From a virus: a stretch of 52,661 nucleotides of DNA. Location: positions 1 through 52,661 of the IMG/VR virus record IMGVR_UViG_3300009537_000014. The stretch is one strand, 5' to 3'. The notes below the pieces were generated by a model. The model was given only the letters and a program-made list of their open reading frames with translations. It had not been told where the DNA came from and made no database searches. Below are positions 7,568 through 49,100 of this stretch, piece by piece; the first letter of the stretch is position 1; every line of letters starts with the position of its first letter. The position numbers and the translations under genes were made by a program.

Positions 7568-7580
7568 AGTAAACATTGAA

Positions 7581-7624: not shown

Positions 7625-7627
7625 CCA

Positions 7628-8059
7628 ATGAGAGCGATAATAGGAGTAGTTAATGGAAAGCGGCGTGCTGTTGTTCTCGAAGATCGTTTATGTGCCATTT
7701 GTGGGGAATCTTTTTCCCCCAAGAAGCAACTCTCTACCTGTTGCAGTTATAAGTGTTACAGGAAAGCAGAAAGTAAACGTTATTCAGAGAAGAACAAAGA
7801 GCGGGCTCGTAGATGGTATCAGGAACATCCTGAGCAAGCTTGTCGTTCCAGGCAGGCTTACAAGGATAGGATACGTCATGGTGGTAAGAAATCTGATCTC
7901 ATTAAAAAAAAAGGACTTGTTTGTTCCAAGTGTGGTGAAGTTGGCGACACAAGGAAGATCCAAGCTCATCACTTTAATGGATCTGGTAATCACCAAGATC
8001 AAGTTCTTCTTTGTTGGCACTGTCATGGAAAAGAGCATATGGCTGCGATTCATCCGTAA
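7628..8059 (+). CDS. HNH homing endonuclease
   Basis: A 143-residue protein with an N-terminal treble-clef zinc finger (CAICGESFSPKKQLSTCC, about 19-36), a basic linker with the KERARRWYQEHPE motif common in phage HNH proteins, and a C-terminal HNH core. The core is CSKC (about 100-103), AHHFNG (about 114-119) and CWHCHGKEH at the end. It would nick or cut DNA at a specific site and spread by homing. The start at 7628 follows AGGAGG inside a hairpin. It interrupts the capsid and decoration gene order. Confidence 0.85.
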   Translation: MRAIIGVVNGKRRAVVLEDRLCAICGESFSPKKQLSTCCSYKCYRKAESKRYSEKNKERARRWYQEHPEQACRSRQAYKDRIRHGGKKSDLIKKKGLVCSKCGEVGDTRKIQAHHFNGSGNHQDQVLLCWHCHGKEHMAAIHP

Positions 8060-8071
8060 TGAGTTAGGTAC

Positions 8072-8098
8072 GGGAGGTCGCCATCGGGTTGACCTCCC
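8072..8098 (+). other. stem-loop after the HNH gene
   Basis: GGGAGGTC (8072-8079) pairs with GACCTCCC (8091-8098) around 11 bases. No T-run follows, so it is more likely an mRNA-stability or processing hairpin, or the 3' border of the inserted HNH cassette. The interval 8060-8168 holds no ORF I can support. Confidence 0.5.
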
Positions 8099-8168
8099 AT
8101 ACCGAACAGTGTTCCCATGATGCATCCGATGAGCGTTGATCCGAAAGGGATGGGGCAAGGAGAGTAAA

Positions 8169-10113: not shown

Positions 10114-10476
10114 ATGAGAGTTCTAGCCAGAGAGCCCCTCATGGTGGATGTGGCTGTAGGTCAAGCAGCCACCGTCTACAGTAATGTTACGGCCTTTGAC
10201 AGGGCTACAGGTGATTGCAGTATCTTCCTGTCGTCTACTGCTGGGGTCATTACCGTAACCCAACAGTGTTCCTTCAACCGGGAAGACTGGTACGATCCTA
10301 TTGACTCCTCTGGGAACAAGCTAGGCGAGGTGATCACAGCCCAAACTGTGACTACTGGTCTATGGATATCTTTCACTCCTGTCTTGGCTCCTTATTCCCG
10401 TTTCAAAGTGGTTGAGGCCAACTCTGCGCCTACAACCGTAACCCTCAGACTCATGTATCAGGAGCAACCTAGGTAA
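10114..10476 (+). CDS. small beta-rich virion protein (120 aa)
   Basis: A 120-residue protein 2 bases after the previous gene and ending in a TAATG overlap with the next. Alternating hydrophobic strands (GDCSIFLSSTAGVITVTQQC, then APTTVTLRLMYQEQPR) suggest a beta sandwich such as a decoration or tail-tip protein. Function not identified. Confidence 0.65.
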   Translation: MRVLAREPLMVDVAVGQAATVYSNVTAFDRATGDCSIFLSSTAGVITVTQQCSFNREDWYDPIDSSGNKLGEVITAQTVTTGLWISFTPVLAPYSRFKVVEANSAPTTVTLRLMYQEQPR

Positions 10477-10964
10477 TGGGCTTCCAGCATAAGGCGAATG
10501 GCAAGGTAGAGGTCAGAAGGACGGAGCGTATCATTGATGTACCTAAGTTCAGGGAAGTAGAGGTCATCAAGCCTAAGATTGTTTATCGGGATGAGATCAT
10601 CGATAGACCTGTCTATAAGGACTACGAGGTTCTGAGACCTGTGTTCAAGGACGTAGAAGTCACCAGGGCGGTCATCAAAGAGGTCGAAGTGGTCGTAGAG
10701 GTCCCCAAGTATGTCGAGAAGGTTATCGAGGTTCCTAAGTACGTGGAGAGGGCCGTAGAGGTCCCACAGTACATTACAAAAGAGGTCTTAGTAGACAAGG
10801 TAACCGTTATTCCTAAGATCAAAGAGGTCCCAGTAGAGAAGGAGATTATCAAGCCTGTCTTTGTTGAGAGGGAGATTGTTGTGGATAAGCCTAAGTTTAG
10901 GGATAGGCATATTGATATTATTAAGCCCCATTATAAATGCCAGGGGTGTGGGATGGAGATCTAA
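10476..10964 (+). CDS. VPKYVEK-repeat filament-like protein with terminal zinc motif
   Basis: A 162-residue protein made almost entirely of a degenerate 7-12-residue repeat: VPKFREVEV, EVPKYVEKVI, EVPKYVERAV, EVPQYITKEV, KEVPVEKEI and VDKPKFRDR. It ends in CQGCGMEI, a half zinc knuckle. Valine, glutamate, lysine and proline dominate. The pattern resembles alveolin-type EVP(Y)VE repeats of protist cytoskeletons, surely by convergence. It probably makes an extended beta-rich or fibrous virion part. Coupled to both neighbours by TAATG overlaps. Confidence 0.75.
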   Translation: MGFQHKANGKVEVRRTERIIDVPKFREVEVIKPKIVYRDEIIDRPVYKDYEVLRPVFKDVEVTRAVIKEVEVVVEVPKYVEKVIEVPKYVERAVEVPQYITKEVLVDKVTVIPKIKEVPVEKEIIKPVFVEREIVVDKPKFRDRHIDIIKPHYKCQGCGMEI

Positions 10965-11254
10965 TGCCGTTTTCAAGTAACCAACTTACACGTATTGCTG
11001 GTGGACCAGTAACTTACTATACTGAGTATACGACTACTAACGCATATGTTGAGAATGTATTCGGTGGTAACGTCAACTCTATCACTGTTACTAACGACTC
11101 GGCTACAGATCCAGTGCAAGTATCATGGGATGGGGCTACTTTAGAAGGTGAGATAAAGGCTGGTGAGAGCATGACGTTTAATGCGAAGACACAGACGAGT
11201 GTCTACATCAGTGCTACTACTGGTGGGGATAATGTGAGGATTTGGGGGTGGTAG
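10964..11254 (+). CDS. small beta-rich virion protein (96 aa)
   Basis: Starts on the last base of the previous stop codon. The pattern NSITVTNDSATDPVQVSWDG, then EIKAGESMTFNAKTQTSVYI, is that of an immunoglobulin-like or jellyroll decoration domain. It closes this group of coupled small structural genes; the next 155 bases hold only a leftward micro-ORF. Confidence 0.65.
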   Translation: MPFSSNQLTRIAGGPVTYYTEYTTTNAYVENVFGGNVNSITVTNDSATDPVQVSWDGATLEGEIKAGESMTFNAKTQTSVYISATTGGDNVRIWGW

Positions 11255-11266
11255 TAACTTGTTTAT

Positions 11267-11365
11267 TTATAAGGGTTTATGTGTCTTGACATGACACATC
11301 TTACAAATAGGGATATAGAACGCTGTAAGAGGCTTTTGAGTTTTGCAGGTTGTACATGTTTTCAT
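11267..11365 (-). CDS. leftward 32-residue zinc-finger micro-ORF
   Basis: Read on the minus strand this encodes MKTCTTCKTQKPLTAFYIPI, then CKMCHVKTHKPL. It has two CxxC pairs spaced 14 residues apart, the layout of the small zinc knuckles in HNH and recombination endonuclease VII proteins. It fills an otherwise empty gap in a purely rightward block. No ribosome site is evident. It could be a moron gene or the relic of a larger endonuclease. An inverted repeat TGTGTC/GACACA lies inside it (11280-11298). Confidence 0.45.
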   Translation of the reverse strand: MKTCTTCKTQKPLTAFYIPICKMCHVKTHKPL

Positions 11366-23411: not shown

Positions 23412-24080
23412 ATGGCTAATGGAAAAGTAACAACTTATGAAGGTACCGGGCTAGAGATCCCAGGACCATCCGCATCAGAGCGAGGCTTCCAAGCGTTGGC
23501 TTCGGTGCTAGGTGGGATGTCTCAACGTCAGAAAGAGAGCCGGGCTCAAATGACAGCGGTGTTGCCTGCGCTTGTGGCAGCGAAGATGGTCAAGCCTTGG
23601 GAGTCATCCAAGGACGGAGAGAAGATGAGATTTGGTGGCAGAGACTGGGCTGTTACCGCTCCATCCGCTGACCTACAACAGATGCTTACGCAAGCTCATC
23701 TTGCTCAAGCTATGCAGAGCTTGACTGGTGTGCCTACCGAAAAGGAACGTTATGGTAAGGTTCTTGGTTTGTTAGGTGAGACGGCTTCTGCTGATCCTAT
23801 GGGTCGTGTGGAAGCGATGAGGGCTGGTGGAGAATCTGAGGAAGGACGGCAAGCAGCTCTGCTTAATTATTATTCTCAACTTGTTGGAGGCGCTTCTGCT
23901 ATGGAGAACATGGCTTATGGCTCTATGTACGGTCAGCAGGCTCCTCAAGTTCAAGGTGCTGATGTTGTTAGAGTATTCAACAAGAAGACTCAACAATACC
24001 TGACTCGCCCTAGAGCAGAATGGGAGGCATTTCAAGCTTCTGGATTACCTGAAGCTAAAGATTGGACGGAGATTAAATAA
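23412..24080 (+). CDS. putative internal virion or ejection protein 2 (222 aa)
   Basis: Behind AAGGAGAATGTT. It is mostly helical and alanine-rich (RGFQALASVLGGMSQRQKES, MTAVLPALVAAKMVKPWESS), without cysteine or catalytic motifs. It ends in a TAATG overlap with the 2666-residue gene, so the two products are probably made and packaged together. Confidence 0.6.
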   Translation: MANGKVTTYEGTGLEIPGPSASERGFQALASVLGGMSQRQKESRAQMTAVLPALVAAKMVKPWESSKDGEKMRFGGRDWAVTAPSADLQQMLTQAHLAQAMQSLTGVPTEKERYGKVLGLLGETASADPMGRVEAMRAGGESEEGRQAALLNYYSQLVGGASAMENMAYGSMYGQQAPQVQGADVVRVFNKKTQQYLTRPRAEWEAFQASGLPEAKDWTEIK

Positions 24081-27000
24081 TGCCCTATGACTTCTCAGTG
24101 TATGGGACTAAGGCTCCTGCTAAAGCTCCAGGCAAGGCTAAGAAACCTGAGTACGACTTTTCTGCTTATCAAACCCAGCCCCCAATAGAACCTCCAGGGA
24201 CTGCTCAGGCTCCTAAGTTCGATTTCTCTGCATATAAAACTCCTGTGGCTCCAACCAATGGTAAGCCAACGGGTGCTAAGCCAACGTTTCCGGCAGAGCG
24301 TACCGGCACCGTCCGCCCTATACCTGAACCTCCTCCTTACTACCAACCAGATGATCCGCTTAAGAACGAGATAGCTTATGTAGGGTATGGCTTTGGCTCT
24401 GCTGTCGAGAGTGCGTTCAGGGGAGCCATATCTTCAGGGTTTGAGATGTCCAGGTATGGATATCAGAAGATAGAGCAAGTTCAGAACCCTTATGTGCGTA
24501 ACTTCTTAAAAACTATCTATAAAGCAACTCCCCTTGGGTTCCCGCAACCGGAACGCTTGGACAGTATCATTAAAACTTTAGATCCACTTAGCGGTCGCAC
24601 GCCATCTCTTATCCCAACATTTCAGGAGTCAGCTATGTATAAGGCGGCTGAGGCCAAGAAGCTTGGGCTGGGTATGCGTGTCTTAAGAGCCGGAGAGAAC
24701 GCCGCTATAGATGTGGCTGCTTTAATAGGCATGATATATGCGACTAAAGGGTTGGGGCTTCTTAGAGGGACCCCTCAGGCAGCTAAATTGGCTCAGATTG
24801 CCCGTCCAACAGTGGCTGGCAAGGGGATCATAGGACAGTTCATTAAGCGTCCCAAGATGATCACACTCTCTACCGGGGAGATGGTCATGCAGAGGGGTAG
24901 AGCCCACATGATTCCAGCTATCATGGGCAAGGGTGGAGAGGTTCTCAAAAGCGGTCACGCTGTCCGTCAAGCTATCATCAATAAGGAGATGTTCAAGCAG
25001 GCCCTCAATCTTGGTACCTTCATGGCTGTTACGCATTCGGGTACGCCTGAAGAGAGACTGAAGCAGGGCTTCTTTGGGTTTCTTTATGGAGCCACTCCTC
25101 CCGTTACAGGCATGGTTCTTGGAAAGCTAGGAGCTACCCTACCTAAGCTAGCTCCCGCTGTTGCCAACCGCATGGCGGCGTATCTTACGGATTTCACATT
25201 GAATACTGCTCTTACAACCCAGCTAGCATACAAACATATCCTAGAGCAGAGCAAGGGGCCTGACGGTAGCATCGATTGGAATGAGGCTATTACTCATATT
25301 GTTCCTCAAGTAATAACGGACATGGCCTTCTCTTTCCATACGAGGGCTTCTAGTAAAGCAGTCTTGGAAGCTTCTTATGAGAAGATGCTACAGAAGGATC
25401 CAAACCTGGCTAAGAAGTATCCTAACGCCGAAGCATGGGAGAAGGGCGAGATTGCCAGGATGGGTGAGATGGAGAAGCTTTCCAAGGTGCTTACGGAGAT
25501 GGCTGGCATCTCTGGTGAAGCTCCTGTGAGAGGCAAGGGAGGCTTTCAAGGAGAGGTAGCTGAGGGGAAGATAGGTCAGAAAGCTACTATCCGTATCATC
25601 GAGTCAGAGCCTACTCCAGGCGTTGAAAGGCTCAAGGTCCAAAGCAAGGCTGCTAAGAGAAAGGCCCTTAGAGCTGTCAAAGAGAAGGCTAAGCAACTGG
25701 AGATCCTGCTCCCTTCAGGCAGGAGAGCCCGCCTTGATATAGACCGTATGCCTGAGAGTGTAAGGTTGCAGATTGAGAAGGCTATGGCTGAGCCAGATCC
25801 TAACGCAGCAGTCAAACAGGTATACGAGTCTCTTAAAGACACTATTGTTTATATGGGTCGTGGTACCGTTCCGGGTCTTAAGAAGCCTGGTATCGCAGCC
25901 GAGGCTCGTGTGTGGATTGGTAGAGACATGCTGCTTGGTAAGCAGTCAACAGTGTCCATCACGGACTTACCGAAGCGACTGGATCTCCATGGGCGTACGC
26001 CGCTTGACCTTAACTACCGTGTGGAAGGTTATCCTAAAGCTGAAGGACTGGCTGAACTCCAGGTAAGGGTACAGGCTGAATATAAGAGGGCTCATAAGAA
26101 TTATCTAATCAAGGATGTTGTTACTCCTCAGAAGGCAGCGGAGGCTAAGGTTGATGTCTGGAGTCGTGAAGCTGCCAGTGGTGTGAAAGCTGAGAGCCCA
26201 CGGATCAAGAGTAAGATTTCTCCAGAGATTCTTGATTCTCTTCGCCGTGTCATAGCCACAGCCGGTTATGGTAAGGGAAGGACCTTCAAGATAGAGTTCT
26301 ATGAGGGTGAAACAGCTAAGGAAAAGTTTAATGACGGGATTTCCGCCCACACGTTCTTTGACGGAAAAACCCGCACTGTACGCATACATCGTGAGCTTGC
26401 GGAGGCTTTGTATGACGAGTATCACAGCGGTAAGAATCCTGGTGCGTTCCACCAGATAGGGAAAGAGTTCCCTCATCTCTTTAGGTTAAACAAAGAAGAA
26501 TTCATGAAGTTCGTTACGGCTCATGAGATTGTCCATGCGACTACAGGCTTGGATGCTGGTAAGGATGAACAACTGGTCAACATCCTTGCTTTAGAGATGG
26601 CAGGCAAGTACGACTATGCCAGCATGTTGGCCCTGAAATATCATGCTCAAGGTAAGTTCATAGACTACCGCCTGCCTCAAGAAGAGTTCCTGCGTTTAGC
26701 CAACCAACCTCTACATACAGGCGTCAGAGAACTGGATCGTATGATGGGATACAAAGACCCTTCCGGTATGGATTCTATAAGAACCGCTGATAAGAAGGAT
26801 GCGCTTGATGCCCTTGGAGGAACTGAGAAGATCACCATTAATGACTTCTTCCAGTCGAAGCTCAGGGAGGTTATTTATGATCGCATGGCTGCATCTGCTA
26901 CTCCTGAACAGATACTAGGTCTCTTTAAGAACAATGGAGTTAAAGATTCCGAGATAGAAGGCAACCAGCTTAGAGAGTTCATGGAGGGTAAGGGTAAGAT

Positions 27001-30000
27001 TAGCCGTGACGAACTCCTAGCATGGGTGGATGAGCAGTCTACCCGTCTGGATGTTCAGGAAGAAGCCGTATCTAGACCATCGGTTGTTCCTGAATTTGTT
27101 GTTTCCCAACCTAGACGTGGCTATGAAGAACTTGTCTATTGGATGCCTGGGATTAAAGAGGTCTCTTCTGATCGGATGCACTTTGGTGACATAGGTAAGA
27201 ATCGTACTATTGGTTGGCTCAGGAGCCAGTCCTTTGAAGCTTCTATCAAGGGAGAAACCCAACAAGTTAAGTTTATTGACGAGCTACAAAGCCAACGTAG
27301 CCAGATGATCCGTAGGATACGTAAAGGTTTGATTGAGAGTGTAACAGACGAGAAAGAGTTTAAGAAGCTTATTAATAAACTTAGGTTTCGAGTTGTTGAT
27401 CTAGGTGATCTTCCTGATGGTCGTGTAGATGTGGAGATAGCTGAGCAGCCGTTCGTATATTGGTTCGGTGAAATGGAGCCTGGTGAAGGAGGGATGCGTT
27501 TCGGGACGCACCCTGATGCGTATATGAGCCAGGAAGCTATAGATGATGCGAAAGCCGCAGGTTATACCTTTGAGGTGGAGCGTATAACGGATCAAGAGCA
27601 TCTGTTAACGTTTGCAGATGAGGTTTCTCATGCAGAGAGAGCTGCGTCAGAATACCAGCAGAGAGAGTCTTTATTAAAGTTTCCCTTCGAGAAGTCCTGG
27701 CAAGATCTTATATTGAAACGTTATGTTCATAAAGCCGTCATGGAAGGTGCGGATGTTATTGCTTGGACTCATCCTGAAGTGCAAGCTGATCGTGGCATGA
27801 AAGAGAATAAAGCGCAGACTATGTATGGTCAGATCATACCTCAGTTCTTCAAGAAGTATTTCAAGTTAGATGTAGAGCATGGGGACCCAGAGGGCTTTGG
27901 TTTCGGCAAGGAAAGGATTCTCAAAGATAGAGAAGGCGTAGAATTGCTTGCTGTTCCTGCGGACAACGTCCCCTATGTCCGCCTCACCCCAGCCATCAAA
28001 GACAAGATTTTACAGAACAAGCAATACTTCTTCTTCTCTGATCCTCCCGCCAAGGATACCCGCAAGGAACTCAACGATGTCTTGAGACAAAAGCTTAATG
28101 CTTCCTCTCCTGAGGGGCTTGATAGACGCTGGCTTTACCTTCCTGACGCTGAAGACTTTACTGTATATGGAAGATGGGCTCAGCATGTTCAAGGCTTGGG
28201 TATCAACGGTATGGACTATCAGTCTTGGAGAATGAGTATTGATAAATCAAAAGTCGTCTATATATTCGGCAAGCTTGAAGGGGAAGCCAAGCAGGTATAT
28301 GACTATGCTCGTAGACAGGGTAAGTATATAATCCTCAACCCAACGGTGAAGAAGGGTGTCGAGCTTCGAGAAGAAGCTAGTGATTTCTATGTCCATGGTG
28401 GATCTGAAGCTTGGCTGGAGAAAGTATTCACCATCCCTACCGACAAGCTTGATTATTATAATCCTGAGCATCAAAGGGCGTTTGATGACTTGATGAAGAA
28501 GAGCCCTCCAAATACCAGGGAGTGGGGACAAGCCCTGATCAGGCGAATGAGGGCAGACGTGGTAGAGGGTGAGCCTGGGTCTGATACCGAACCCTTGTCT
28601 CCTAAAGACAGGATTGATCAGGCATATGAAGATGCCATGGCCCAAGATGTTCCATCCGAGATGGCTAAACCTTTCGTTGATGCTATGTCAAGGTGGAATC
28701 AAATTCGTAGAGATGTTGCGAGGACCACTCCAAGGGAGCGTTTAGACGAAGAGCTTCTTAAGACAGACAATGAGAACTATAGAACGGTTGTTGATATCTT
28801 AGGGAAGTTTGGTTCTCAGTATCTTGGCATGTTTAAGGAGCCGAGAAGCTTGAAGGGCAAACGCCAGACTTATGGGCTTATCTACGAAGGTATGATGAAG
28901 CGCCTCCCAGAAGGCCGTCCAGAGATGCTTGAACACCAGTGGGGTGGGAACATATTTACCGCTAAGATTTTGGCCAGGAAATGGGGCGAGAGTCTACGTG
29001 CGGTCAGGAATGATCCTCAGTCAGTGAAGGATGTGGTGAACAAGGAATGGAACGGAAGGTTTCAAGTGCTGCTCGCCCAAGCCAAGCAGTTCAAGTCTCC
29101 ATTTATAAATGAGATCATAAACGAGAAGAACAACATCCTTGAGTCTATGGCTAGGGTAGACCAACAGCGGTTAAGGGATAGAGAGACCCTCGCTATTGAC
29201 CAGGAGCCGGATAAGATCGGTGGGCCTCCTATCAAAGCCAACGGTGCTACGAGTATCGAGGGGAGGCATCTTGGTTTCTTATTCAGCACTATTCTAAGAG
29301 GGCAGAAGTTCTTCGGTACATTCAACGAGGACAGGTATGTCCGTTGGGTTAAGAAAGTCGTCGGAGGAGACGAGAAGTTCAACAAGCTGTTCCCTCCGAT
29401 ACAGTATGTCGACCCTATTACCCGTGAACGTCTGGTTGGCGGGATCATGAATATCAAGAATGGGTCGGAGCTCTGCAACCTGATTGGCTATAGAGTACAG
29501 CATCTCATCATCGAGGAAGTTTGGAAACAGGTACAGAATGACGGGATGAAGGGTGGCCGTAGGGCAATGCAGGAGAGGCTGGATACTTATCTAGGCATCA
29601 TGTCTCGTGCCTTGCAAGAGCTTCAACATAAGCTTGGCACGCCTATCAACCAATACATACTTACGGAGATAGGAGCCGGTTACCGTTGGGGCAAGACTGC
29701 TGAAGAGAAGATGGAGAAGCAGGCTGTACTGGATGACTTCAGGAAGTATGCCATGAAGCTTGTTAAGGATGATGCGGGCAGGCAGCGCATAGAAACCTTG
29801 ATCCGCAGGATGGATGCCACTGATATCAGAATGCCTGAATTGTTCCTTAAGCTTCTCCCCCCTCACGTGAAGAACATCCTTACGTGGTACAGGGCTTCCA
29901 TCGAACGTCCTCTACTGGACAGGATGATAAGCTCCGGTCTGCTGGATAACGCTGTCCTTTATAAGAACGTCAAGATGGGATTCGGCCCCAGGTTCTGGGC

Positions 30001-32080
30001 TCCTCAAGAGTGGGAGAGAGGGTTTGGGAGGACGAGGGAAGCTCTTCTAAGCCAAGAGTTTCAATCTCAGAAGTTTAGAACCTTCAGCCACTTTGCCAAG
30101 TCTGTGAGAGAAAACTCCAAGCTACAGATGACCGATGACTTTGCCTGGAACATAGGTCATTACATTGCTGATGCTCAACACCGCATTCATGCTCAGTCGG
30201 GTCTCAATGCGATCAGGTTGATTGAGAACCCTAACAAGGTTGTGGCTACCGGCATGAAGAAGGGAGCTAAGTTAGAGAAGCTGTATCTTGTTGATTATGC
30301 CGAGAGGTATATGAACAAGTTTGAGGGTGATTCTAGACAGAAGCTATCTAAAGCTCGTGGGCTTCTGTCTGACAACGGTTACGCTCCAGTCAAGCGACAT
30401 TCAGGTCTAGCCAACAGAGCCAAGGGTGGTTTCTGGCAGCCGTATGCCCACAACAGTATCGCTAAGATCATAGATCAGATGTATCCAGATACCAAGCCTA
30501 CCAACTGGAAGTATTGGTTCCAGATGAACCAACTCCTCAAACGTGGTGTCATGTGGTCTCCGTATATGTGGATGGTGCAGATAGCGTCCTCACCTATGAT
30601 GTGGCTTAGTCCTGGCAAGACATGGAAGTACGGTATCAAGCCTCTGCTTACAGGTCATGTTCTTACGAAGGGTTTGAAGATTGGTGCTGACATGATGCAG
30701 GGTAAAGAGAATCCGTTTGAGGTATACGAGGCTGAGGGGATCGATGACCGCAAACTTCTTCTCTTTCAACGGTATGGCTTGCGTGGCTTTAGTCCAGAAG
30801 ATCTCTTAAATACTATGTTCGATACTGTCCGCAAAGAATGGTCTCATCCCAGGCAACGGTCTTTGCTAGAGGATATCAAGAAGACTTTTGGTATGAAAGG
30901 CGGCATAGACTCTTATGCTTTCGGTCATTACGTTTCACGGATCATGTACGAGTATGCGGATGCGTTGACTACGAAGATGATGAAGGCAGGTATGCCTATG
31001 GAGCTGGCAGCCAAGAGAGCCGTTGACTTTGCTAATGTAACGAGTGGTCTTATCAACCAGAACATCTATGGTGCTGAGAAGAGACTTCTTCAAGGTTTGC
31101 TTTTCGCTCGTGACTTTACGATGTCATTTGTAATGCAGACAACAGGAGCGTTGGGTTGGAAGCAGGAGTATTCTACCGAAGGCTGGAGGAGATGGACCAA
31201 CTCTGTCTTCCATGGGACTGTAAGCAAGGCAGACTTTGAAGCCCTCGTTCCTTATTATAGAGCACACTTGGGCAAGGTGTTCATGTGGAATTTCCTGTTG
31301 ATCAACCTGATACAGTATGGCTTGTCGTTCTTCAACAAGGACCAGGAAGAGAAAGGTATGTTTGCCTTTGAGAACGAGCCTGGAAGAAGGACTGACATCA
31401 AGCTTCCTTGGAAGGACAGGGATGGCAGGTGGATCTATATGAACCTTCTAGCGTTGAGAGAAGCTGACCAGGCATACGATGTTCTCTCTACGTTCCCTGG
31501 TTTCAAACAGTTGCTTGGAGGCAGAGGAGCGTTGGCTTGGGGCAGAGGCAAGTTTAATGCGGGCATCAATGTTCTCACAGGTCTTAAGAGCGGGTTTGAT
31601 TATGCTGGCAATCCTATAACAGGTGACCGGGATGTTGTTTCGGTAATCGAGTTTATCAGAGACTACTCTAAGTACACACTGAACTCAGCGTTACCTTCTG
31701 CCTTCAGAGGAGATCTTAAGAAGCCTGGAGGGGACTGGGGATTTCTAAGCAGTCAAGCTATAGGAACACCTCTTGTAAGGGGAAGGGTGCCTGCAGGCGG
31801 TGATATGAACAGAGCTATCACTATGCAGAGGGCTTATGCTAGAGAGCAGTATGACAGGCAAAGGACCAAGAACCTGGCTTATCCTATGTCTGGAGCTGAG
31901 CTTCTCAAGAAGATGAAGGACTCACCGAACCTTATGATCAATGATGAGGAGGTGCTTAGAAGACTGTTTCGAGAACATGGAGGTGCTTACTACCAGTATC
32001 TTATGGACAGGTATCCTTCGTACATCAGACAACAGCAAAGAAAAGCTTTACGCAGAAGGCGTAGACGAGGAGGAGAATAA
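24080..32080 (+). CDS. giant internal virion (polyvalent-type) protein, 2666 aa
   Basis: One uninterrupted 8-kb reading frame. It opens with three short repeats (YDFSVYGTKAP, YDFSAYQTQPP, FDFSAYKTPVA; about 3-52) and a hydrophobic helix near 90-105. Residues 815-819 are HEIVH, a zincin-type metallopeptidase motif. Residues about 1013-1240 match the large polyvalent protein pattern: MHFGDIGKNRTIGWLRSQSF, FIDELQSQ (1065-1072), KSWQDLILKRYVHKAVMEGA and VIAWTHPEVQADR. Long helical regions and a C-terminal hydrophobic region (about 2160-2200) follow. It is presumably ejected with the DNA to remodel the envelope or counter host defences. I see no RNA polymerase motifs, unlike the giant N4 protein. 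Confidence 0.75.
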   Translation: MPYDFSVYGTKAPAKAPGKAKKPEYDFSAYQTQPPIEPPGTAQAPKFDFSAYKTPVAPTNGKPTGAKPTFPAERTGTVRPIPEPPPYYQPDDPLKNEIAYVGYGFGSAVESAFRGAISSGFEMSRYGYQKIEQVQNPYVRNFLKTIYKATPLGFPQPERLDSIIKTLDPLSGRTPSLIPTFQESAMYKAAEAKKLGLGMRVLRAGENAAIDVAALIGMIYATKGLGLLRGTPQAAKLAQIARPTVAGKGIIGQFIKRPKMITLSTGEMVMQRGRAHMIPAIMGKGGEVLKSGHAVRQAIINKEMFKQALNLGTFMAVTHSGTPEERLKQGFFGFLYGATPPVTGMVLGKLGATLPKLAPAVANRMAAYLTDFTLNTALTTQLAYKHILEQSKGPDGSIDWNEAITHIVPQVITDMAFSFHTRASSKAVLEASYEKMLQKDPNLAKKYPNAEAWEKGEIARMGEMEKLSKVLTEMAGISGEAPVRGKGGFQGEVAEGKIGQKATIRIIESEPTPGVERLKVQSKAAKRKALRAVKEKAKQLEILLPSGRRARLDIDRMPESVRLQIEKAMAEPDPNAAVKQVYESLKDTIVYMGRGTVPGLKKPGIAAEARVWIGRDMLLGKQSTVSITDLPKRLDLHGRTPLDLNYRVEGYPKAEGLAELQVRVQAEYKRAHKNYLIKDVVTPQKAAEAKVDVWSREAASGVKAESPRIKSKISPEILDSLRRVIATAGYGKGRTFKIEFYEGETAKEKFNDGISAHTFFDGKTRTVRIHRELAEALYDEYHSGKNPGAFHQIGKEFPHLFRLNKEEFMKFVTAHEIVHATTGLDAGKDEQLVNILALEMAGKYDYASMLALKYHAQGKFIDYRLPQEEFLRLANQPLHTGVRELDRMMGYKDPSGMDSIRTADKKDALDALGGTEKITINDFFQSKLREVIYDRMAASATPEQILGLFKNNGVKDSEIEGNQLREFMEGKGKISRDELLAWVDEQSTRLDVQEEAVSRPSVVPEFVVSQPRRGYEELVYWMPGIKEVSSDRMHFGDIGKNRTIGWLRSQSFEASIKGETQQVKFIDELQSQRSQMIRRIRKGLIESVTDEKEFKKLINKLRFRVVDLGDLPDGRVDVEIAEQPFVYWFGEMEPGEGGMRFGTHPDAYMSQEAIDDAKAAGYTFEVERITDQEHLLTFADEVSHAERAASEYQQRESLLKFPFEKSWQDLILKRYVHKAVMEGADVIAWTHPEVQADRGMKENKAQTMYGQIIPQFFKKYFKLDVEHGDPEGFGFGKERILKDREGVELLAVPADNVPYVRLTPAIKDKILQNKQYFFFSDPPAKDTRKELNDVLRQKLNASSPEGLDRRWLYLPDAEDFTVYGRWAQHVQGLGINGMDYQSWRMSIDKSKVVYIFGKLEGEAKQVYDYARRQGKYIILNPTVKKGVELREEASDFYVHGGSEAWLEKVFTIPTDKLDYYNPEHQRAFDDLMKKSPPNTREWGQALIRRMRADVVEGEPGSDTEPLSPKDRIDQAYEDAMAQDVPSEMAKPFVDAMSRWNQIRRDVARTTPRERLDEELLKTDNENYRTVVDILGKFGSQYLGMFKEPRSLKGKRQTYGLIYEGMMKRLPEGRPEMLEHQWGGNIFTAKILARKWGESLRAVRNDPQSVKDVVNKEWNGRFQVLLAQAKQFKSPFINEIINEKNNILESMARVDQQRLRDRETLAIDQEPDKIGGPPIKANGATSIEGRHLGFLFSTILRGQKFFGTFNEDRYVRWVKKVVGGDEKFNKLFPPIQYVDPITRERLVGGIMNIKNGSELCNLIGYRVQHLIIEEVWKQVQNDGMKGGRRAMQERLDTYLGIMSRALQELQHKLGTPINQYILTEIGAGYRWGKTAEEKMEKQAVLDDFRKYAMKLVKDDAGRQRIETLIRRMDATDIRMPELFLKLLPPHVKNILTWYRASIERPLLDRMISSGLLDNAVLYKNVKMGFGPRFWAPQEWERGFGRTREALLSQEFQSQKFRTFSHFAKSVRENSKLQMTDDFAWNIGHYIADAQHRIHAQSGLNAIRLIENPNKVVATGMKKGAKLEKLYLVDYAERYMNKFEGDSRQKLSKARGLLSDNGYAPVKRHSGLANRAKGGFWQPYAHNSIAKIIDQMYPDTKPTNWKYWFQMNQLLKRGVMWSPYMWMVQIASSPMMWLSPGKTWKYGIKPLLTGHVLTKGLKIGADMMQGKENPFEVYEAEGIDDRKLLLFQRYGLRGFSPEDLLNTMFDTVRKEWSHPRQRSLLEDIKKTFGMKGGIDSYAFGHYVSRIMYEYADALTTKMMKAGMPMELAAKRAVDFANVTSGLINQNIYGAEKRLLQGLLFARDFTMSFVMQTTGALGWKQEYSTEGWRRWTNSVFHGTVSKADFEALVPYYRAHLGKVFMWNFLLINLIQYGLSFFNKDQEEKGMFAFENEPGRRTDIKLPWKDRDGRWIYMNLLALREADQAYDVLSTFPGFKQLLGGRGALAWGRGKFNAGINVLTGLKSGFDYAGNPITGDRDVVSVIEFIRDYSKYTLNSALPSAFRGDLKKPGGDWGFLSSQAIGTPLVRGRVPAGGDMNRAITMQRAYAREQYDRQRTKNLAYPMSGAELLKKMKDSPNLMINDEEVLRRLFREHGGAYYQYLMDRYPSYIRQQQRKALRRRRRRGGE

Positions 32081-39171: not shown

Positions 39172-39190
39172 GTAAGTAGGAATAGAAAGT

Positions 39191-39223
39191 CGGGATAGTA
39201 TCGGGATAGTATCGGGACAGTGT
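39191..39223 (+). repeat. three tandem 11-bp iterons at the origin
   Basis: CGGGATAGTAT occurs at 39191-39201 and 39202-39212, with a third diverged copy, CGGGACAGTGT, at 39213-39223. The copies abut without spacers and lie in one helical-turn-like register. They sit at the left edge of the 250-base non-coding origin region, probably as binding sites for the DnaD-like initiator encoded at its right edge. Confidence 0.8.
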
Positions 39224-39247
39224 CATGCAGGGATTTTACAAAGAAAG

Positions 39248-39345
39248 AAAAGAAAGTAACAAAGAAAAGAAAGAAAGCATCGAGGAGGCTACTTTCTTTT
39301 ATCTACTATGTTAGCATACATGCTATACATATATACATGTATGCT
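39248..39345. repeat. AT-rich inverted repeats of the origin
   Basis: Two perfect inverted repeats lie between the iterons and the DnaA boxes. AAAAGAAAGTA (39248-39258) pairs with TACTTTCTTTT (39290-39300), flanking a purine-only tract. AGCATACATG (39313-39322) pairs with CATGTATGCT (39336-39345) around CTATACATATATA. The second is an easily melted, cruciform-prone region, the natural DNA-unwinding element of a DnaA-type origin. Confidence 0.7.
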
Positions 39346-39361
39346 TACTAGTAGTATGTAC

Positions 39362-39417
39362 TGTGGATAACCTGTTTGACCAACAATACAACTACTTTGT
39401 GGATAAGTTGTGGATAA
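39362..39417 (+). other. replication origin with three perfect DnaA boxes
   Basis: TGTGGATAA, the exact complement of the DnaA box TTATCCACA, occurs at 39362-39370, 39398-39406 and 39409-39417, all in one orientation. The first and third are part of a longer repeat, TGTGGATAACCTGT. With the iterons and AT-rich dyads this gives the full set of origin parts. The last box abuts the GTG of the initiator gene, so DnaA bound there could also control that gene. Confidence 0.8.
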
Positions 39418-39420
39418 CCT

Positions 39421-40071
39421 GTGAAGTACTTCAAACATGATGTTGGGGCGCAGAGAGACTTAAAACTTAGATTAGTTCTTAGGGAGTTTGGGCCAGAAGG
39501 TGTAGGTATATACTGGATGTTGGTTGAAATGTTGGCAGATGAAAGATTACTCTCTATTAACATGAAGAAGATGCCAGTAGAGATGATGGCAGACGAGCTG
39601 AGGATTACTGCGGAGCGGTTGAGGACGGTGTTACACTATATGCTTGAGATAAATTTGTTCTCCAAAGACTCTTGGGAGAATGATGTTTTATACTCGCCTG
39701 CCTTAGAGACTAGGGTTGATGAGTATACCCAGAGGACTATAAAGAAAAAGGGTGGGAGTGTTCCGCCTCAAGAGTTGCCAGTAGTACATGAGTTTATAGA
39801 GTATTGGAATAAGAGCGGGATGCTAGGAATAAGCAAGATTACCCCCGAGAGAAGGGCAAAGCTACTGACTAGGCTCAAGTCTGAGCACTTCAGAGATACT
39901 TGGAGGACAGCTGTAGACCGCTTGAGTAAATCATCGTGGATGAATGGTAGGAACGAGAAGGGTTTTAGGGTTTCAGTGGAGTGGTTTATTAATAATGATA
40001 CTAACTATGTGAAAGCTTTGGAGGGTAAGTACGATGACCGAACCAAAGAAGACAGATTCAGCAAGTATTAA
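39421..40071 (+). CDS. replication initiator, DUF4373/DnaD-like
   Basis: A 216-residue protein. Residues 1-85 (MKYFKHDVGAQRDLKLRLVL, then GPEGVGIYWMLVEMLADE) match the DUF4373 (Lin1244/Lin1753) N-terminal winged-helix domain of DnaD-like initiators. The C-terminus is a basic helical DNA-binding part (ITPERRAKLLTRLKSEHFRD). The GTG start overlaps the last origin repeat and there is no ribosome site, so expression may be low or DnaA-controlled. It should open the origin and recruit host helicase. Confidence 0.75.
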   Translation: MKYFKHDVGAQRDLKLRLVLREFGPEGVGIYWMLVEMLADERLLSINMKKMPVEMMADELRITAERLRTVLHYMLEINLFSKDSWENDVLYSPALETRVDEYTQRTIKKKGGSVPPQELPVVHEFIEYWNKSGMLGISKITPERRAKLLTRLKSEHFRDTWRTAVDRLSKSSWMNGRNEKGFRVSVEWFINNDTNYVKALEGKYDDRTKEDRFSKY

Positions 40072-43860: not shown

Positions 43861-44093
43861 TATCTACCTCCTTTCAGGTATTGGATTTCCTCTTCTACTA
43901 CTCTTTTTAACGGGTCGATGAAGTATAATTCCCACTCAGCTTGTCTTTCCCAACGGTTCTTTTTTAGTACGAAGCCTTCGTTCGCAGACATGAAGCCGCA
44001 TTTATCGTATTCCTGCATACCAGGAACCGACTTGACTGTATCTGCTTGACGGTGGTCGTTTTTCAATCGAACATGGTCTCCAGCTTTAAACAA
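43860..44093 (-). CDS. SH3-like small protein with shared C-terminal tail (77 aa)
   Basis: TTG at 44093 with GGGAGG 8 bases upstream, overlapping the Ku-like gene end by 8 bases. FKAGDHVRLKNDHRQADTVK begins a KOW/SH3-like barrel with WELYFIDP closing it. The end DPLKRVVEEEIQYLKGGR is the shared tail. The same two-part layout appears in three more genes at 49-50.5 kb. Confidence 0.6.
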   Translation of the reverse strand: MFKAGDHVRLKNDHRQADTVKSVPGMQEYDKCGFMSANEGFVLKKNRWERQAEWELYFIDPLKRVVEEEIQYLKGGR

Positions 44094-44742
44094 GCTTGAT
44101 CCTCCCTGTTGCCTTGGGCTTGGGCATTGGTACGTCATCTGGCTTACCTTCTTGTAGGTGCTGAAAGGCTTTCTCTTCTTTAAATACACCGATCTCTAGC
44201 CCCCATTTACCATTGATCTCAACGGCTCTGACATAACCGTCACTGGCTACGAACCCTCTACTTGCAGGGCAGAACTCACCTCTTGCAACCTGCTTGGTCT
44301 GGCGTAGATAATCCCATAGCTTATACATCTGGGATTGGTTACGCTTGACCGCTCTCTGCCTGTCGATGTCCTTCTTCATCCCATCATCATCCGCATAGAC
44401 TTCATAATATGCAGAGATAATATAGTTATCCGTATAGTTGGCTTCAGGCTGGTAGCCTTCTATCGTGAACTGTTTGGTCTGACTCAGCTCGGATACCTCT
44501 TGATCTCCTGCGAAGAATGACAACTCATCCTTCCCATACTGCTGTCCTTGGTCATCTACCCACGCTTTCTGGGTAGACCCCTGACCCAACACCTTGCCTT
44601 GATACAGAGTCTTGTACTTGACCTCCGTACCAGTCGAAGTCTTGGCTACGATCTCTGGCTTCTTTGCCTTGGCGAGATTGTCATATCTGGCATTGAAACC
44701 AATGTCACTTCCGTTTGTTATGTTTAGCTTGTAGCTTGACAC
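44086..44742 (-). CDS. divergent Ku-like DNA end-binding protein (candidate)
   Basis: GTG at 44742 behind AAGGAGGAAAC gives 218 residues. Residues 38-190 follow the order of the bacterial Ku core: a TEVKYKTLY strand, WVDDQGQQYGKDEL (cf. Ku G-x-Y-V-x-L-x-DEDL), TKQFTIEGYQPEANYTDNYI then SAYYEVYADDDG (cf. I-x-F-V...IDPIYF...YYLxPD), and a MYKLWDYLRQTKQVARGEF helix-strand, then RGFVASDGYVRAVEINGKW and GLEIGVF. Ku rings thread onto DNA ends and recruit ligase. The same operon encodes a ligase. By-eye alignment only; the bridge region is short and no C-terminal SAP tail is present. Confidence 0.5.
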   Translation of the reverse strand: MSSYKLNITNGSDIGFNARYDNLAKAKKPEIVAKTSTGTEVKYKTLYQGKVLGQGSTQKAWVDDQGQQYGKDELSFFAGDQEVSELSQTKQFTIEGYQPEANYTDNYIISAYYEVYADDDGMKKDIDRQRAVKRNQSQMYKLWDYLRQTKQVARGEFCPASRGFVASDGYVRAVEINGKWGLEIGVFKEEKAFQHLQEGKPDDVPMPKPKATGRIKLV

Positions 44743-45103
44743 GTTTCCTCCTTGCTCTTCCGAATTGTTTCGGGTTGATCTCAAAGATATAGTGCCCACC
44801 ACGCCTTGATTGTTCCCAACAGAATATCCAGAAGAACGTCCTTTCGAGTTCTGCAATCTGTTCCTCGTGACCAGACCATCCTCCTGTACTGTAATACAAC
44901 TTCACCACAATTCTATCAAAGTCATCACAGTGAAGCGCATAATCGAAACCGAAGAAACTTCCCCATCGGTGGTTATCCTCAAGGATATTAAGAAGTCTCT
45001 TTAGATTCTTGAGCGACATGTGGAACTTGGGACCTCCGATACGCCACTTTCTTATCTCTCTGAGACATTCTGCTGTTGGATATCCATCACTTCTCTTTTT
45101 CAT
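44705..45103 (-). CDS. conserved-type hypothetical protein (132 aa)
   Basis: ATG behind GAAGGAGGAGAAG. The centre reads VVKLYYSTGGWSGHEEQIAE, then a W/F-rich helix and RRGGHYIFEI, a pattern I associate with small phage proteins of unknown function. The end is strongly basic (RARRKRVKLQAKHNKRK). It overlaps the Ku-like gene by 38 bases and follows the hairpin field, so it may belong to the same function. Confidence 0.65.
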   Translation of the reverse strand: MKKRSDGYPTAECLREIRKWRIGGPKFHMSLKNLKRLLNILEDNHRWGSFFGFDYALHCDDFDRIVVKLYYSTGGWSGHEEQIAELERTFFWIFCWEQSRRGGHYIFEINPKQFGRARRKRVKLQAKHNKRK

Positions 45104-45122
45104 GCTTCTCCTCCTTCGCTAC

Positions 45123-45308
45123 TGCATGCACCCTCTGGCCCACTCACTGGTCCACTCGTGCTTGCTTCTACGCAAGCACTCGCCACCCACATCAAGCGGT
45201 GTGGGTTGTCTGCTCGCATGGCACATCTCCATGCCATGCTCGCCCGTTCGCTCGCCAACGGGTGCACCGCATCCGCTCAGTCGTCCAAGCATGTCATGTG
45301 AGGACATG
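45123..45308 (-). ncRNA. field of consecutive hairpins, candidate structured RNA
   Basis: A 190-base GC-rich gap in the leftward operon made of five perfect or near-perfect stem-loops: GTGCTTGC/GCAAGCAC (45158-45179), ACCCACA/TGTGGGT (45185-45206), GCATGGCA/TGCCATGC (45216-45239), CGCCCGTT/AACGGGTG with one G-T (45241-45264) and CATGTC/GACATG (45290-45308). There is also a tandem 12-mer CTGGCCCACTCA/CTGGTCCACTCG (45135-45158) and the palindromes TGCATGCA and GGTGCACC. Loops are 6-8 bases. ORFs crossing it look like noise. It could be a regulatory RNA, RNA-processing region or DNA structure. The strand is assumed from the operon. Confidence 0.55.
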
Positions 45309-45313
45309 AGACA

Positions 45314-46822
45314 TTAATCCTCAAGGGTTACCATAATAGCCTCCAATAAGATCTGGTCAGCAGTCTCTTTAGCCAGGATGTTCATGTCTCCACAGATTTC
45401 AGTAACGAATGTCCCAGTTACTTCTGCTCCTACTCCTACGACCATTACTCTTACATCGTGACCATGCTTGATGATTCTGTCTTGTACCGCTTCTACTTCT
45501 CTCTTATGTACATCTCCATCAGTGAATACGATAACGATCCTCTTGCCATCTAGTTCTGGATCATTAACAAGCTCATCATGCACTACAGCAAACGCGCTTT
45601 CTAGATTGGTTCCTCCTGATGTCCTGAGATACTCCTTCTCCCAGTTCTCTTTGCTTAATGGATGATAGTTTCCAGTAAAGCCAGCGATAGACCAGTCTAC
45701 GCTTAGTCCTTCCAACTGTTCTAACTCTGCGAGGATCTTAACAAGCTCCTTGGCGCATCCACATACTGCACTTTTCCTGCTCTTACCATCCAGAAGAGCT
45801 GTGTCCATTGATCCTGAGCCATCTAACAAGAGCTTGATTCTGCTCTTCTTCTTACGGATTATTTGTTCTTCATGGAACAGCTCGTCTATATCACCTGTCA
45901 GATATGCTGGAAGATTATCCGTGTTGAGATCTTCTCCCATTGGGATGCGTCTGACCTCTTTGATATTGAGCATTGCTTTGAATCTCTCTCTGGTAAGCTC
46001 CTGCAGGGCTACCTCTCCCATCTCAGCGTTACCGACCGTTGTTCCCTCTCCTGGTTTGAGCCCAAACACTTGCTTTGCGTTTGGTTTAAGATCGCTTAGA
46101 TCTGTGGTACCGAGGGTCCCCTTGCCTCCACACACCTTACAGGAGGTGCCGTTGGTGTCTTTGCCTGTACCATTACAGGCTGGACAGGGGTGTGCATCCC
46201 CTCCCGTGGCAGACAAGGGGACTTTCGGCAACTTATCTAGGCCAAAGATCTTCATTAATTCTTCAATCTTATCTTTCAAGCCACCCCAGTTTTCCATCTC
46301 AATATCATCGATTGCCATCTCTACTTTGTGGTGGATGTTGTGCTTATCTGCGAACTCTTCTGCCTCCCTGTCCTTGATGTGACCTTCTCTTAACCCTTCA
46401 AGTTCATAGATTGTATTGACGAGCACCTTCTTGTGGAGAGGGACTTCCTCCATCTTAACTTTCTTTCGATGCTCTACATCATAGGCTACGCCACGCTTAT
46501 AGAACTCGTGGATATTGGGCAACAGTTGGAAGTTATGCCTATCGATTCTTACGTCTTCGATGGCATTCAGTACACCATGCGCTATCTGGTTATCTTGAGT
46601 AACCTCTTTGACAGGGATGCCTCCCGTATACCTTACATGCCCTGCTTCATGCATGAGATGTGACAGGCTGGCAAACGCATCCTTCTCTTCTACATTGCTG
46701 GGTAAGATAATGTGCTTGGTCTGCATGTCCACGCATGGGGTGACATCTGGTTTGAACTCAACCGTCACCCCTGTCGTTCTTCCAATCCACTTGGCTAGGA
46801 TCTCGTATGTTTTGGCATTCAC
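45314..46822 (-). CDS. metallopeptidase-VWA protein (CobT/MoxR-partner type)
   Basis: A 502-residue protein. The N-terminus holds a zincin helix HEAGH (58-62) with NAIEDVRID (87-94) supplying a further acidic ligand. A DnaJ-like four-cysteine zinc finger is at 213-233 (CPACNGTG, CKVCGGKG). The C-terminal VWA domain has a complete MIDAS: DGSGS (334-338), T405 in SGGTN and D435 in FTDGD. This is the architecture of VWA partners of MoxR-type AAA+ ATPases, sometimes annotated as CobT. It pairs with the ATPase at 47092. The complex would remodel or cleave an unknown target. Confidence 0.8.
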   Translation of the reverse strand: MNAKTYEILAKWIGRTTGVTVEFKPDVTPCVDMQTKHIILPSNVEEKDAFASLSHLMHEAGHVRYTGGIPVKEVTQDNQIAHGVLNAIEDVRIDRHNFQLLPNIHEFYKRGVAYDVEHRKKVKMEEVPLHKKVLVNTIYELEGLREGHIKDREAEEFADKHNIHHKVEMAIDDIEMENWGGLKDKIEELMKIFGLDKLPKVPLSATGGDAHPCPACNGTGKDTNGTSCKVCGGKGTLGTTDLSDLKPNAKQVFGLKPGEGTTVGNAEMGEVALQELTRERFKAMLNIKEVRRIPMGEDLNTDNLPAYLTGDIDELFHEEQIIRKKKSRIKLLLDGSGSMDTALLDGKSRKSAVCGCAKELVKILAELEQLEGLSVDWSIAGFTGNYHPLSKENWEKEYLRTSGGTNLESAFAVVHDELVNDPELDGKRIVIVFTDGDVHKREVEAVQDRIIKHGHDVRVMVVGVGAEVTGTFVTEICGDMNILAKETADQILLEAIMVTLED

Positions 46823-47091: not shown

Positions 47092-48327
47092 CTAAGTCAT
47101 TAACTCTTTCCAAATCGCCTGCGCAATCCTAAGGAAACTCTCCTTAGCTTTGGGTTGGGATACAGCTTCAAGGATACTAGACAAGCCATCCTCTAGGGCA
47201 TCTTTCAGTGGCAACCCTGCCACCCACAAGTCGATCACGTTGTTTAACTGCCTGATTGATATATCTATCGGTAACTGTACTCTGTCGATGGTCTCGATGA
47301 TGGAGAAATAATACTTGGAAAACTTCTCGCTATCATCCTCAGCTATCTCTGGGTACCTGGCTTTGATTGCTCTCTTGATCTGAGGCTTTGTGAACTCAGG
47401 ATAAGTGAGATAAGTACATCGTCCTAGGAAATTACTAGGCTTGACCACGCCACCGATATACTTGGCACTCTTTGGATTCTGAGCGAACCCGATCCTGCAA
47501 TCAATGTGTAGCTGATAGACCTTTCCATTTCCGTTGTTAGCGTCCTTGATATACAGCTCTCTATTCTGCAAGAGGGCATGGAAATCAAATGTGTTCGCAT
47601 TACTGACAGCATTGATCTCATCGAACAGGATGACAGACGGACATTGGGTTGCCTTTACGAACAACGCTTCTTGGAACACAACGCTTCCATTGATGATGGT
47701 CTTGTCACCATACAGTTTGGTCAACCTGAAGTCTTCATATCCAGAGAACAAGAAGAATGGAAGCTGATTCTTATACGCATAATACATATGGCTCCAAGTC
47801 TTCCCGGTCCCTTGCTTTCCTTGGGTTAGCGGATATTTGCCTATGTTGTATGCGACAGCCAGCCTCTTATCGATATCTCTTTCGATATAGTTATCGAACT
47901 CCTCCTTCTTTGGGATATACGTCTTCATGTCTTCTGGGATCTCAAACTGCTTGGAGGCTGAACTTTCATTGATGTTGGCTCTTGTAGTTTGAGACTCTTC
48001 TGATTTCTCGGTTGGTTTACCTCCCCCGACTGTGGCTCCGCTCAATGGATCTCCCATTTCTAGGAACCTCCCTCTTATTGTAGATTCATCGAGATCAATG
48101 TTATGTCTCTTCTTGACCTCTTCTTTGATCATCCAAGCTCTGACTTGCTTGGAATCTTTCTTGAGGAACTCTCTGATCTCTCTCAGTTCTTCGTTGCTTA
48201 CCGCACTCTTCATTACACCTCCTTGTTCGTTGAATATCTCATTGCATCTAAGACATAGTTCTCCGCTTCGAGTACAGGTGCTATATCCATCTCCATTGTA
48301 GTAAGGCTTACCTGCACAAATCGTCAT
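47092..48327 (-). CDS. MoxR-type AAA+ ATPase (CobS-like)
   Basis: A 411-residue protein from ATG 48327 (ATGA overlap with the ligase stop). An internal ATG at 48213 has a far better ribosome site (AAGGAGGTGTA) and would give 373 residues. The N-terminal 38 residues hold four cysteines (C4, C18, C25, C28). An HTH-like helical part follows (SKQVRAWMIKEEVKKRHNID). The AAA+ core has Walker A GKQGTGKT (170-177), Walker B VILFDEIN (232-239) and CRIGFAQNPKSAKYIGG as sensor and arginine-finger region. MoxR ATPases act with VWA partners, present two genes on. Confidence 0.85.
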   Translation of the reverse strand: MTICAGKPYYNGDGYSTCTRSGELCLRCNEIFNEQGGVMKSAVSNEELREIREFLKKDSKQVRAWMIKEEVKKRHNIDLDESTIRGRFLEMGDPLSGATVGGGKPTEKSEESQTTRANINESSASKQFEIPEDMKTYIPKKEEFDNYIERDIDKRLAVAYNIGKYPLTQGKQGTGKTWSHMYYAYKNQLPFFLFSGYEDFRLTKLYGDKTIINGSVVFQEALFVKATQCPSVILFDEINAVSNANTFDFHALLQNRELYIKDANNGNGKVYQLHIDCRIGFAQNPKSAKYIGGVVKPSNFLGRCTYLTYPEFTKPQIKRAIKARYPEIAEDDSEKFSKYYFSIIETIDRVQLPIDISIRQLNNVIDLWVAGLPLKDALEDGLSSILEAVSQPKAKESFLRIAQAIWKELMT

Positions 48328-49100
48328 GCTTTTCCCCGATATACTGGATGCCTTAGACCACCTTGAGACATGAATCCTTGGTGTTCGATCTTCACCCTCA
48401 TTCCTATCTTCAGATGGATCTTGTCCTTGTTGCAGACCTTGACTCCTACGGCCTTTCCTGTCGAGCCGGGACCAAACGGAACGAACACTTCTATCCTTTC
48501 TTTCGTTGGATCAATGTTCCATACTTGATACACATTCTCATCCTTCTTCTTGAGCTTGACCCAATGGCAAGGACCGTACTGGAGATGAGAGTCTAGAGAC
48601 TTGACTACTGTGCCTTCATAACCTTGGTTACAAGCCTTCTTGAAGTGACCTAGAGCTTCTGCTTTTGATCTAACAACCTTTCCTATCGATGATATTGGGA
48701 ACTCACGACGCATGATTTCAAGCCTCGTGATCAACGGTTCACGCTTAAGAGATATGCCGTTAAGCGTTTCAATATCGAATGGAACGAACTTTAATGCGTC
48801 TGAATGTTTGTTCTTTAGAAGCTCGGTTAACTCACCTGTAAGACCGTTATAGTAGATTAGTTCTCCTAGTATCACATACCTAAGGTGAGAAGATTCGTTA
48901 AACAGCCATCGTGTAAGCTCGAAGTCTTCTCTCTTCTTACCATACTTGTTGAGAAGATATGGTTTCTCACCCCACGGCTTGATGAGCTGGTTATACTCCC
49001 CATCAAACTTAGGCTCCGCCCATGCTGGATAATGTAGACTATCCAGATTTCCCCTCAGCTCGGGGAACTGTGCCTTCTGGTTCGTGTTCGTAATCTTCAT
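48324..49100 (-). CDS. ATP-dependent DNA ligase
   Basis: A 258-residue compact ligase. Motif I EPKFDGEYN has catalytic K31. Other motifs are III YVILGELIYYNG (75-86), IIIa FVPFDIETLNG (105-115), IV EGTVVK (162-167) and V VKLKK (181-185), then an OB-fold (VWNIDPTKERIEVFVPFGPG ...). It seals nicks using ATP. Size and domains match T7- and LigD-like small ligases. The Ku-like gene lies 3.6 kb downstream in the same operon. Start behind GAAAGAGAAGAAG; the preceding zinc-ribbon gene overlaps by 62 bases. Confidence 0.9.
   Translation of the reverse strand: MKITNTNQKAQFPELRGNLDSLHYPAWAEPKFDGEYNQLIKPWGEKPYLLNKYGKKREDFELTRWLFNESSHLRYVILGELIYYNGLTGELTELLKNKHSDALKFVPFDIETLNGISLKREPLITRLEIMRREFPISSIGKVVRSKAEALGHFKKACNQGYEGTVVKSLDSHLQYGPCHWVKLKKKDENVYQVWNIDPTKERIEVFVPFGPGSTGKAVGVKVCNKDKIHLKIGMRVKIEHQGFMSQGGLRHPVYRGKA

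Follow-up and report, generated by a model that had tools for sequence, protein, structure and literature searches.

The 210-nt gap between a VWA gene and the next gene downstream in a phage operon probably holds an RNA element that is under selection; we put the probability of this reading at about 0.75. The window, meaning the whole 52,661-nt stretch of viral DNA that was analysed, carries a leftward operon with ligase, AAA+ ATPase, VWA and Ku genes. The gap is bounded by the VWA stop codon and by the first codon of a 132-aa gene. The two genes are encoded on the minus strand, and Ku is the second gene downstream of the gap. The sequence-only reading had placed a field of hairpins inside a VWA-Ku operon; the site was correct, with the correction that the operon is on the minus strand. 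In operon order, the genes and the gap are:

48324-49100, minus strand: ATP-dependent DNA ligase (domain/PHROG matches)
47092-48327, minus strand: AAA+ ATPase (AAA_5 / CobS-like; MoxR/CobS-like), 49-67% identical in relatives
45314-46822, minus strand: VWA protein, 502 aa (Pfam VWA above cut-off; PHROG peptidase 459)
45104-45313, minus strand: noncoding intercistronic gap, 210 nt, with the structured element (fold energy, codon score, Rfam)
44705-45103, minus strand: 132-aa protein of no recognised family, next gene downstream of the gap (Shine-Dalgarno AAGGAGG)
44086-44742, minus strand: phage Ku protein, 218 aa, GTG start (predicted structure, Foldseek)

The neighbour described earlier as Ku-like is supported by structure comparison. 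An AlphaFold (AF2) model of the 218-aa protein, built from 10 sequences (mean pLDDT 74), matched human Ku70/80 (best E 1e-7) and Mycobacterium tuberculosis Ku (1e-6) in Foldseek, with a TM-score of about 0.45. Pfam Ku gave weak hits in two relatives (best E 0.008). Judged from this model, the product of 44086-44742 has a true Ku fold that is nearly invisible to sequence profiles, and its Ku homology, seen by structure, is useful in itself. Close to the N-terminus of the VWA protein, an HEAGH sequence resembling a metallopeptidase motif was spotted by eye. INPHARED contained no phage record similar by DNA, VWA or Ku, and a search of IMG/VR with single-sequence patterns gave no close homologue of the VWA or 132-aa protein.

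Inverted repeats are concentrated in the gap. Between 45123 and 45308 there are exactly five perfect, non-overlapping hairpins (stem of at least 6 bp, loop of 3-9), compared to 0.37 expected, and 1,000 dinucleotide shuffles of this region averaged 0.37 and never exceeded 3. This bears out the five stem-loops with 6-8-bp stems that had been noticed by inspection. When the whole 52.7-kb sequence was stepped through, the densest patch was the 186-nt window at 45137, which holds five hairpins; windows overlapping it hold four, and all other places hold three or fewer. The word CTCGC recurs as had been claimed (four copies versus 0.53 expected). Of the palindromes, TGCATGCA at about 45123-45130 is plain. 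The tandem 12-mers were not confirmed, as the repeat search yielded no more than two pairs, one of 19 nt at 74% and one of 9 nt. The operon (minus) strand of the 210-nt gap folds at -96 kcal/mol (z -5.2), and the plus strand has a z of -4.7; for each strand, none of 200 shuffles was as good. In a z-scan of the whole window, position 45121 shared the top places with others, several of which correspond to terminators, a 5' leader or an origin-like region.

In the thermodynamic ensemble of the operon-strand RNA, the dominant element runs from approximately 45276 to 45118 and is predicted to be a closed multibranch unit, in which an outer stem encloses a junction with three strong hairpins. The outer stem consists of two helices (TGCACCC 45266-45260 with GGGTGCA 45133-45127, and TTGGC 45258-45254 with GCCAG 45139-45135), and the long match between its arms was also picked up by a separate inverted-repeat search. 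The element ends directly 5' of the Shine-Dalgarno of the next gene. Its predicted parts, together with the hairpins outside it or in competition with it, are:

45254-45266, minus strand: 5' arm of the outer stem, pair probability 0.99 in both helices
45127-45139, minus strand: 3' arm of the outer stem, pair probability 0.99 in both helices
45216-45239, minus strand: hairpin A, GCATGGCATG/TGTGCCATGC, 10 bp in RNA, pair probability 0.95 (in DNA, 8 bp perfect, loop 8)
45185-45206, minus strand: hairpin B, ACCCACA-CCGCTTGA-TGTGGGT, 7 bp, loop 8, pair probability 0.82
45158-45179, minus strand: hairpin C, GTGCTTGC-GTAGAA-GCAAGCAC, 8 bp, loop 6, pair probability 1.0
45290-45308, minus strand: 5' hairpin CATGTC/GACATG outside the closed element, pair probability 0.91
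45243-45262, no strand assigned: fourth hairpin of the sequence-only reading, CCCGTT/AACGGG, 6 bp, loop 8 in DNA

All five of the hairpins seen originally are present in the DNA, but two of them yield in the RNA. The hairpin at 45243-45262 competes with the outer stem and has a pair probability of 0.00 in operon-strand RNA, and the hairpin at 45294-45309 (6 bp, loop 4) has a pair probability of 0.04 in that register and is replaced by the shifted hairpin at 45290-45308. A picture of five independent hairpins is incomplete, as it leaves out that the best fold closes into a multibranch element.

The gap was described by inspection as lacking a credible gene, and codon usage agrees. The only operon-strand ORF in it (62 aa, 45119-45307) scores -0.16 for codon usage, lower than any of the 12 neighbouring genes scored (-0.03 to 0.31); it was rejected as a gene on this ground. 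Open plus-strand frames also cross the bases of this ORF. Rfam gave no matches for the whole window, and at permissive thresholds 44900-45500 had only chance-level hits. No tRNA or tmRNA was detected at the element, and on the operon strand 45104-45313 contains no GC-rich hairpin with a U-tract behind it, as an intrinsic terminator would have. No promoter of its own is evident for the element, as weak promoter-like matches occur at about chance frequency, and anti-phage defence models gave no match. With a stable fold (z -5.2) and no coding signal, the gap has two of the features expected of a structured phage noncoding RNA.

Relatives of the module allow this structure to be compared across genomes. 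Nine other IMG/VR contigs and four MAG contigs carry the ligase-AAA+-VWA-Ku cluster, and one further contig has just the Ku end. Two of the MAG contigs, L021 and L022 (MAGs labelled Omnitrophota; positions 7094-8238 and 10310-11305, respectively), carry the cluster together with a tyrosine integrase. L021 adjoins tRNA-Lys and apparent frr, pyrH, tsf and rpsB (ribosomal-operon genes), and L022 adjoins apparent rpoD and dnaG (names by eye in both). Because of the integrase and these flanking genes, at least these two look like integrated elements in Omnitrophota. Contig L023, which is binned as Microgenomates and also carries the Ku-ligase-AAA-VWA cluster, contains an intercistronic twister ribozyme of type P5 (1829-1886, plus strand; 51 bits versus a gathering threshold of 37.6).

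Most relatives carry structured noncoding gaps beside AAA, VWA or Ku, which bears out part of the sequence-only reading, whose proposed RNA or DNA partner of the system is still a hypothesis; the gaps cannot be aligned with each other and they stand at different junctions. On the operon strand they are:

L002, 6049-6216: between AAA and VWA, one small gene away; z -6.3
L002, 8013-8251: VWA to Ku; z -4.8
L003, 4350-4464: after AAA, with a 21-bp outer stem; z -5.9
L004, 9061-9194: after Ku; z -7.3
L006, 7713-7990: two elements, Ku to AAA; z -4.7
L007, 5936-6090: AAA to VWA; z -8.1
L008, 7258-7370: after Ku; z -4.9
L047, 635-750: after Ku; z -8.2
L023, about 7330-7440: just before VWA; z -6.5

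With uniform gene calling, 6 of 17 non-terminator gaps beside AAA, VWA or Ku had z < -4, compared to 5 of the 101 located elsewhere (one-sided Fisher test, p 0.001); these counts come from related genomes and are not fully independent, and they err on the conservative side, since the L006 and L007 elements were masked by spurious ORFs and the L002 element at 6049 was placed in the elsewhere group. Three genomes (G004, G008, and G009) have the cluster with no clear element. Element position differs even between close relatives: it is after Ku in G003 and G010 (Ku 79-80% identical), and between AAA and VWA in G006 (Ku 73-79% identical to these two), which has no gap after Ku. A varying junction combined with a constant module speaks against a leader that belongs to any single gene. 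The window element has no sequence similarity to any other element and no alignable homologue. A-rich unpaired bases were considered as evidence for RNA and were rejected, as shuffles look alike.

The sequence-only reading had named a lack of compensating base changes in relatives, together with undetected RNA, as grounds for abandoning it. Such changes are present in the one alignable pair, L021 1040-1240 and L022 3828-4025, which is noncoding and downstream of Ku. RNAalifold predicted 47 pairs for these elements, eight of them changed on both sides. Including a loop-loop helix spotted by eye (columns 40-43 with 136-139), 50 of 50 pairs are kept in both, with nine double changes in seven of nine helices, while slid-partner controls were 37-47% paired with no double changes; the comparison involves two sequences only, from which the structure itself was derived. 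Nine double changes without a broken pair would nonetheless be hard to get by chance. G-U pairs in this pair of elements are kept or gained on the operon strand only, which favours an RNA of that strand over DNA. Within the scope of this sequence comparison, RNA structure under selection is demonstrated in the L021/L022 relative; for the window's own copy we infer that structure is very likely under selection. An operon-strand RNA is the more likely form of the element. A covariance model of the pair identified a third, truncated homologue in L020 (E 8e-11) and no element in other phages, so the elements are not one sequence-alignable family. The L004 and L047 elements (Ku 79-80% identical) were left out of the covariation analysis, as they gave no reliable alignment.

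Some loop words are shared among the elements. Inner hairpins of L006 (twice) and L002 have a common nine-base loop, AAGCGTAGC or AAGCGGAGC, on differing stems: in L006 the neighbouring hairpins at 7776 and 7929 have different 8-9 bp stems and an identical AAGCGTAGC loop, and in L002 the loop AAGCGGAGC at 6092 is on a third stem. The word AAGCGNAGC occurs in 5 of 13 elements; for that word shape the maximum in shuffled sets was 4, reached by 1 of 200. It was rejected as a genome-wide repeat (20 sites versus 13.8 expected in 451 kb) and stands out only inside the elements. We treat it as a lead only, because it was spotted post hoc after several word shapes had been tried and because it is absent from the window element.

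These observations suggest that the folded stretches beside the Ku cluster are an undescribed kind of phage RNA. We infer that the window element is the same kind of thing as the elements of the relatives and acts in trans. The RNA would be transcribed on the minus strand within the leftward polycistronic message, from immediately after the VWA stop codon to immediately upstream of the next gene's ribosome-binding site. Most likely it would be one of a class of closed-stem RNAs that recur, evolve fast and go together with a phage DNA-end module composed of ATP ligase, MoxR/CobS-like AAA+, metallopeptidase-VWA, and Ku. Such an RNA may be released from the mRNA or may act within it. It could be a component of the module, such as a scaffold, or a decoy or regulator to which Ku or the AAA-VWA pair binds. 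That it serves the module as an RNA component is a tentative proposal, to which we give somewhat less than even odds. Eukaryotic Ku binds stem-loops of telomerase RNA, and Ku can bind RNA hairpins; the Ku protein in the window is of a prokaryotic phage type without the eukaryotic extra domains. Known Ku relatives act on DNA ends, which counts against an RNA partner. A still more specific version, in which an end-joining module has its own fast-evolving closed-stem RNA that hops between junctions and keeps its fold and some loop words but not its sequence, is unlikely as it stands. To our knowledge, bacterial and phage Ku are understood as DNA-end binders without RNA. If the proposal is true, this Ku system would be the first known in prokaryotes to have a dedicated RNA component, and repeated structured RNAs beside Ku, ligase, AAA, and VWA genes would be a direct case for RNA in prokaryotic end joining.

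Intercistronic structures in polycistronic messages can also act in cis, as an RNase III-type site, a stability block, or an insulator, with no partner among the module proteins. This is a serious though lesser possibility for the elements described here, and it would reveal an unseen level at which phages of uncultured bacteria process their messages. The elements fill the space from stop codon to Shine-Dalgarno almost exactly, several are long rods (such as L003 with its 21-bp outer stem), and junction and sequence vary freely, as expected if the fold alone matters. None of the sampled elements beside the module has a U-tract end, and the gap in the window has no terminator-like site. However, such sites should spread along operons, yet the elements cluster beside three genes. 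The multibranched L021 and L022 folds with their covarying loop-loop contact go beyond the needs of a processing hairpin, and identical apical loops on different stems suggest a bound ligand. Intercistronic rods in a polycistronic phage message resemble the RNase III hairpins of T7-type phages, but the elements here differ in being concentrated beside three genes and multibranched, with loop-loop covariation in a relative.

The repeats could instead work as DNA, with cruciforms or extruded single-stranded hairpins bound by Ku or another module protein at a recognition or replication site. We consider this improbable. The stems are nearly all Watson-Crick, either strand folds about equally, and fold energy of the elements favours neither strand. 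Ku binds DNA ends and hairpin DNA (PDB 8v53 is among the Foldseek matches of the Ku model), and the GCGNAGC mini-hairpin is extremely stable in DNA. Placement of the elements, however, follows the operon strand and its ribosome-binding sites and shifts between close relatives, and the G-U pairs of L021 and L022 are specific to the operon strand. Inverted repeats free of selection, or a small gene, likewise have little chance of being the explanation: the 62-aa ORF fits neatly between its neighbours and the window element has no homologue for a comparison of conservation, but codon usage speaks against the ORF, shuffled sequences never attain the hairpin number or folding energy of the real one, and structured gaps recur in relatives. 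A self-cleaving ribozyme of an unrecognised type that separates two messages is very improbable, for although a closed stem with a loop-loop contact is ribozyme-like and L023 has an intercistronic twister (some 4 kb upstream of AAA, outside its VWA-side element), no Rfam ribozyme model matches the window element, even at permissive thresholds, or the other elements searched, and no common catalytic core is visible across them.

The element has partial parallels among known systems. GOLLD and ROOL are large, strongly structured noncoding phage RNAs whose partner or function was long unknown (PMC12286853). The window element is likewise noncoding, strongly structured, and phage-carried; GOLLD and ROOL are much larger and conserved in sequence, whereas the window element is about 160-210 nt, has no Rfam match, is intercistronic, and is tied to a Ku/AAA/VWA module. 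The VWA-containing Ro60 protein with its Y RNA or YrlA is similar in that a VWA protein is encoded beside a closed-stem RNA. It differs in that the window VWA protein has a metallopeptidase-like N-terminus (PHROG 459), and Pfam finds VWA only, with no TROVE. Y RNA families have no Rfam match in the window, and we do not assign the element to the Ro60/Y RNA group. Corndog-type mycobacteriophages have a leftward operon with Ku and an AAA ATPase, and they are thought to recircularise their genome by means of Ku (PMC4351075). The window shares this combination of Ku and an AAA ATPase in an operon running leftward. The portion of that source used here mentions no structured RNA, and the window Ku had no tblastn match in 50,697 phage records.

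Several other features of the window were observed. A plus-strand ORF of 2,666 aa (24080-32080) has no Pfam match at E 0.1, and G006 has a 2,637-aa ORF. A 20-bp hairpin (7568-7652; z -6.3) is located between the major head protein gene and an HNH endonuclease-like ORF (by eye). The noncoding region 39172-39440 is origin-like, with three DnaA-box-like TTATCCACA words that lie within 56 nt of minus-strand sequence, three 11-nt direct repeats of the GGGATAGTA type, a GA-rich duplicated 21-mer, and a 13-nt inverted repeat.
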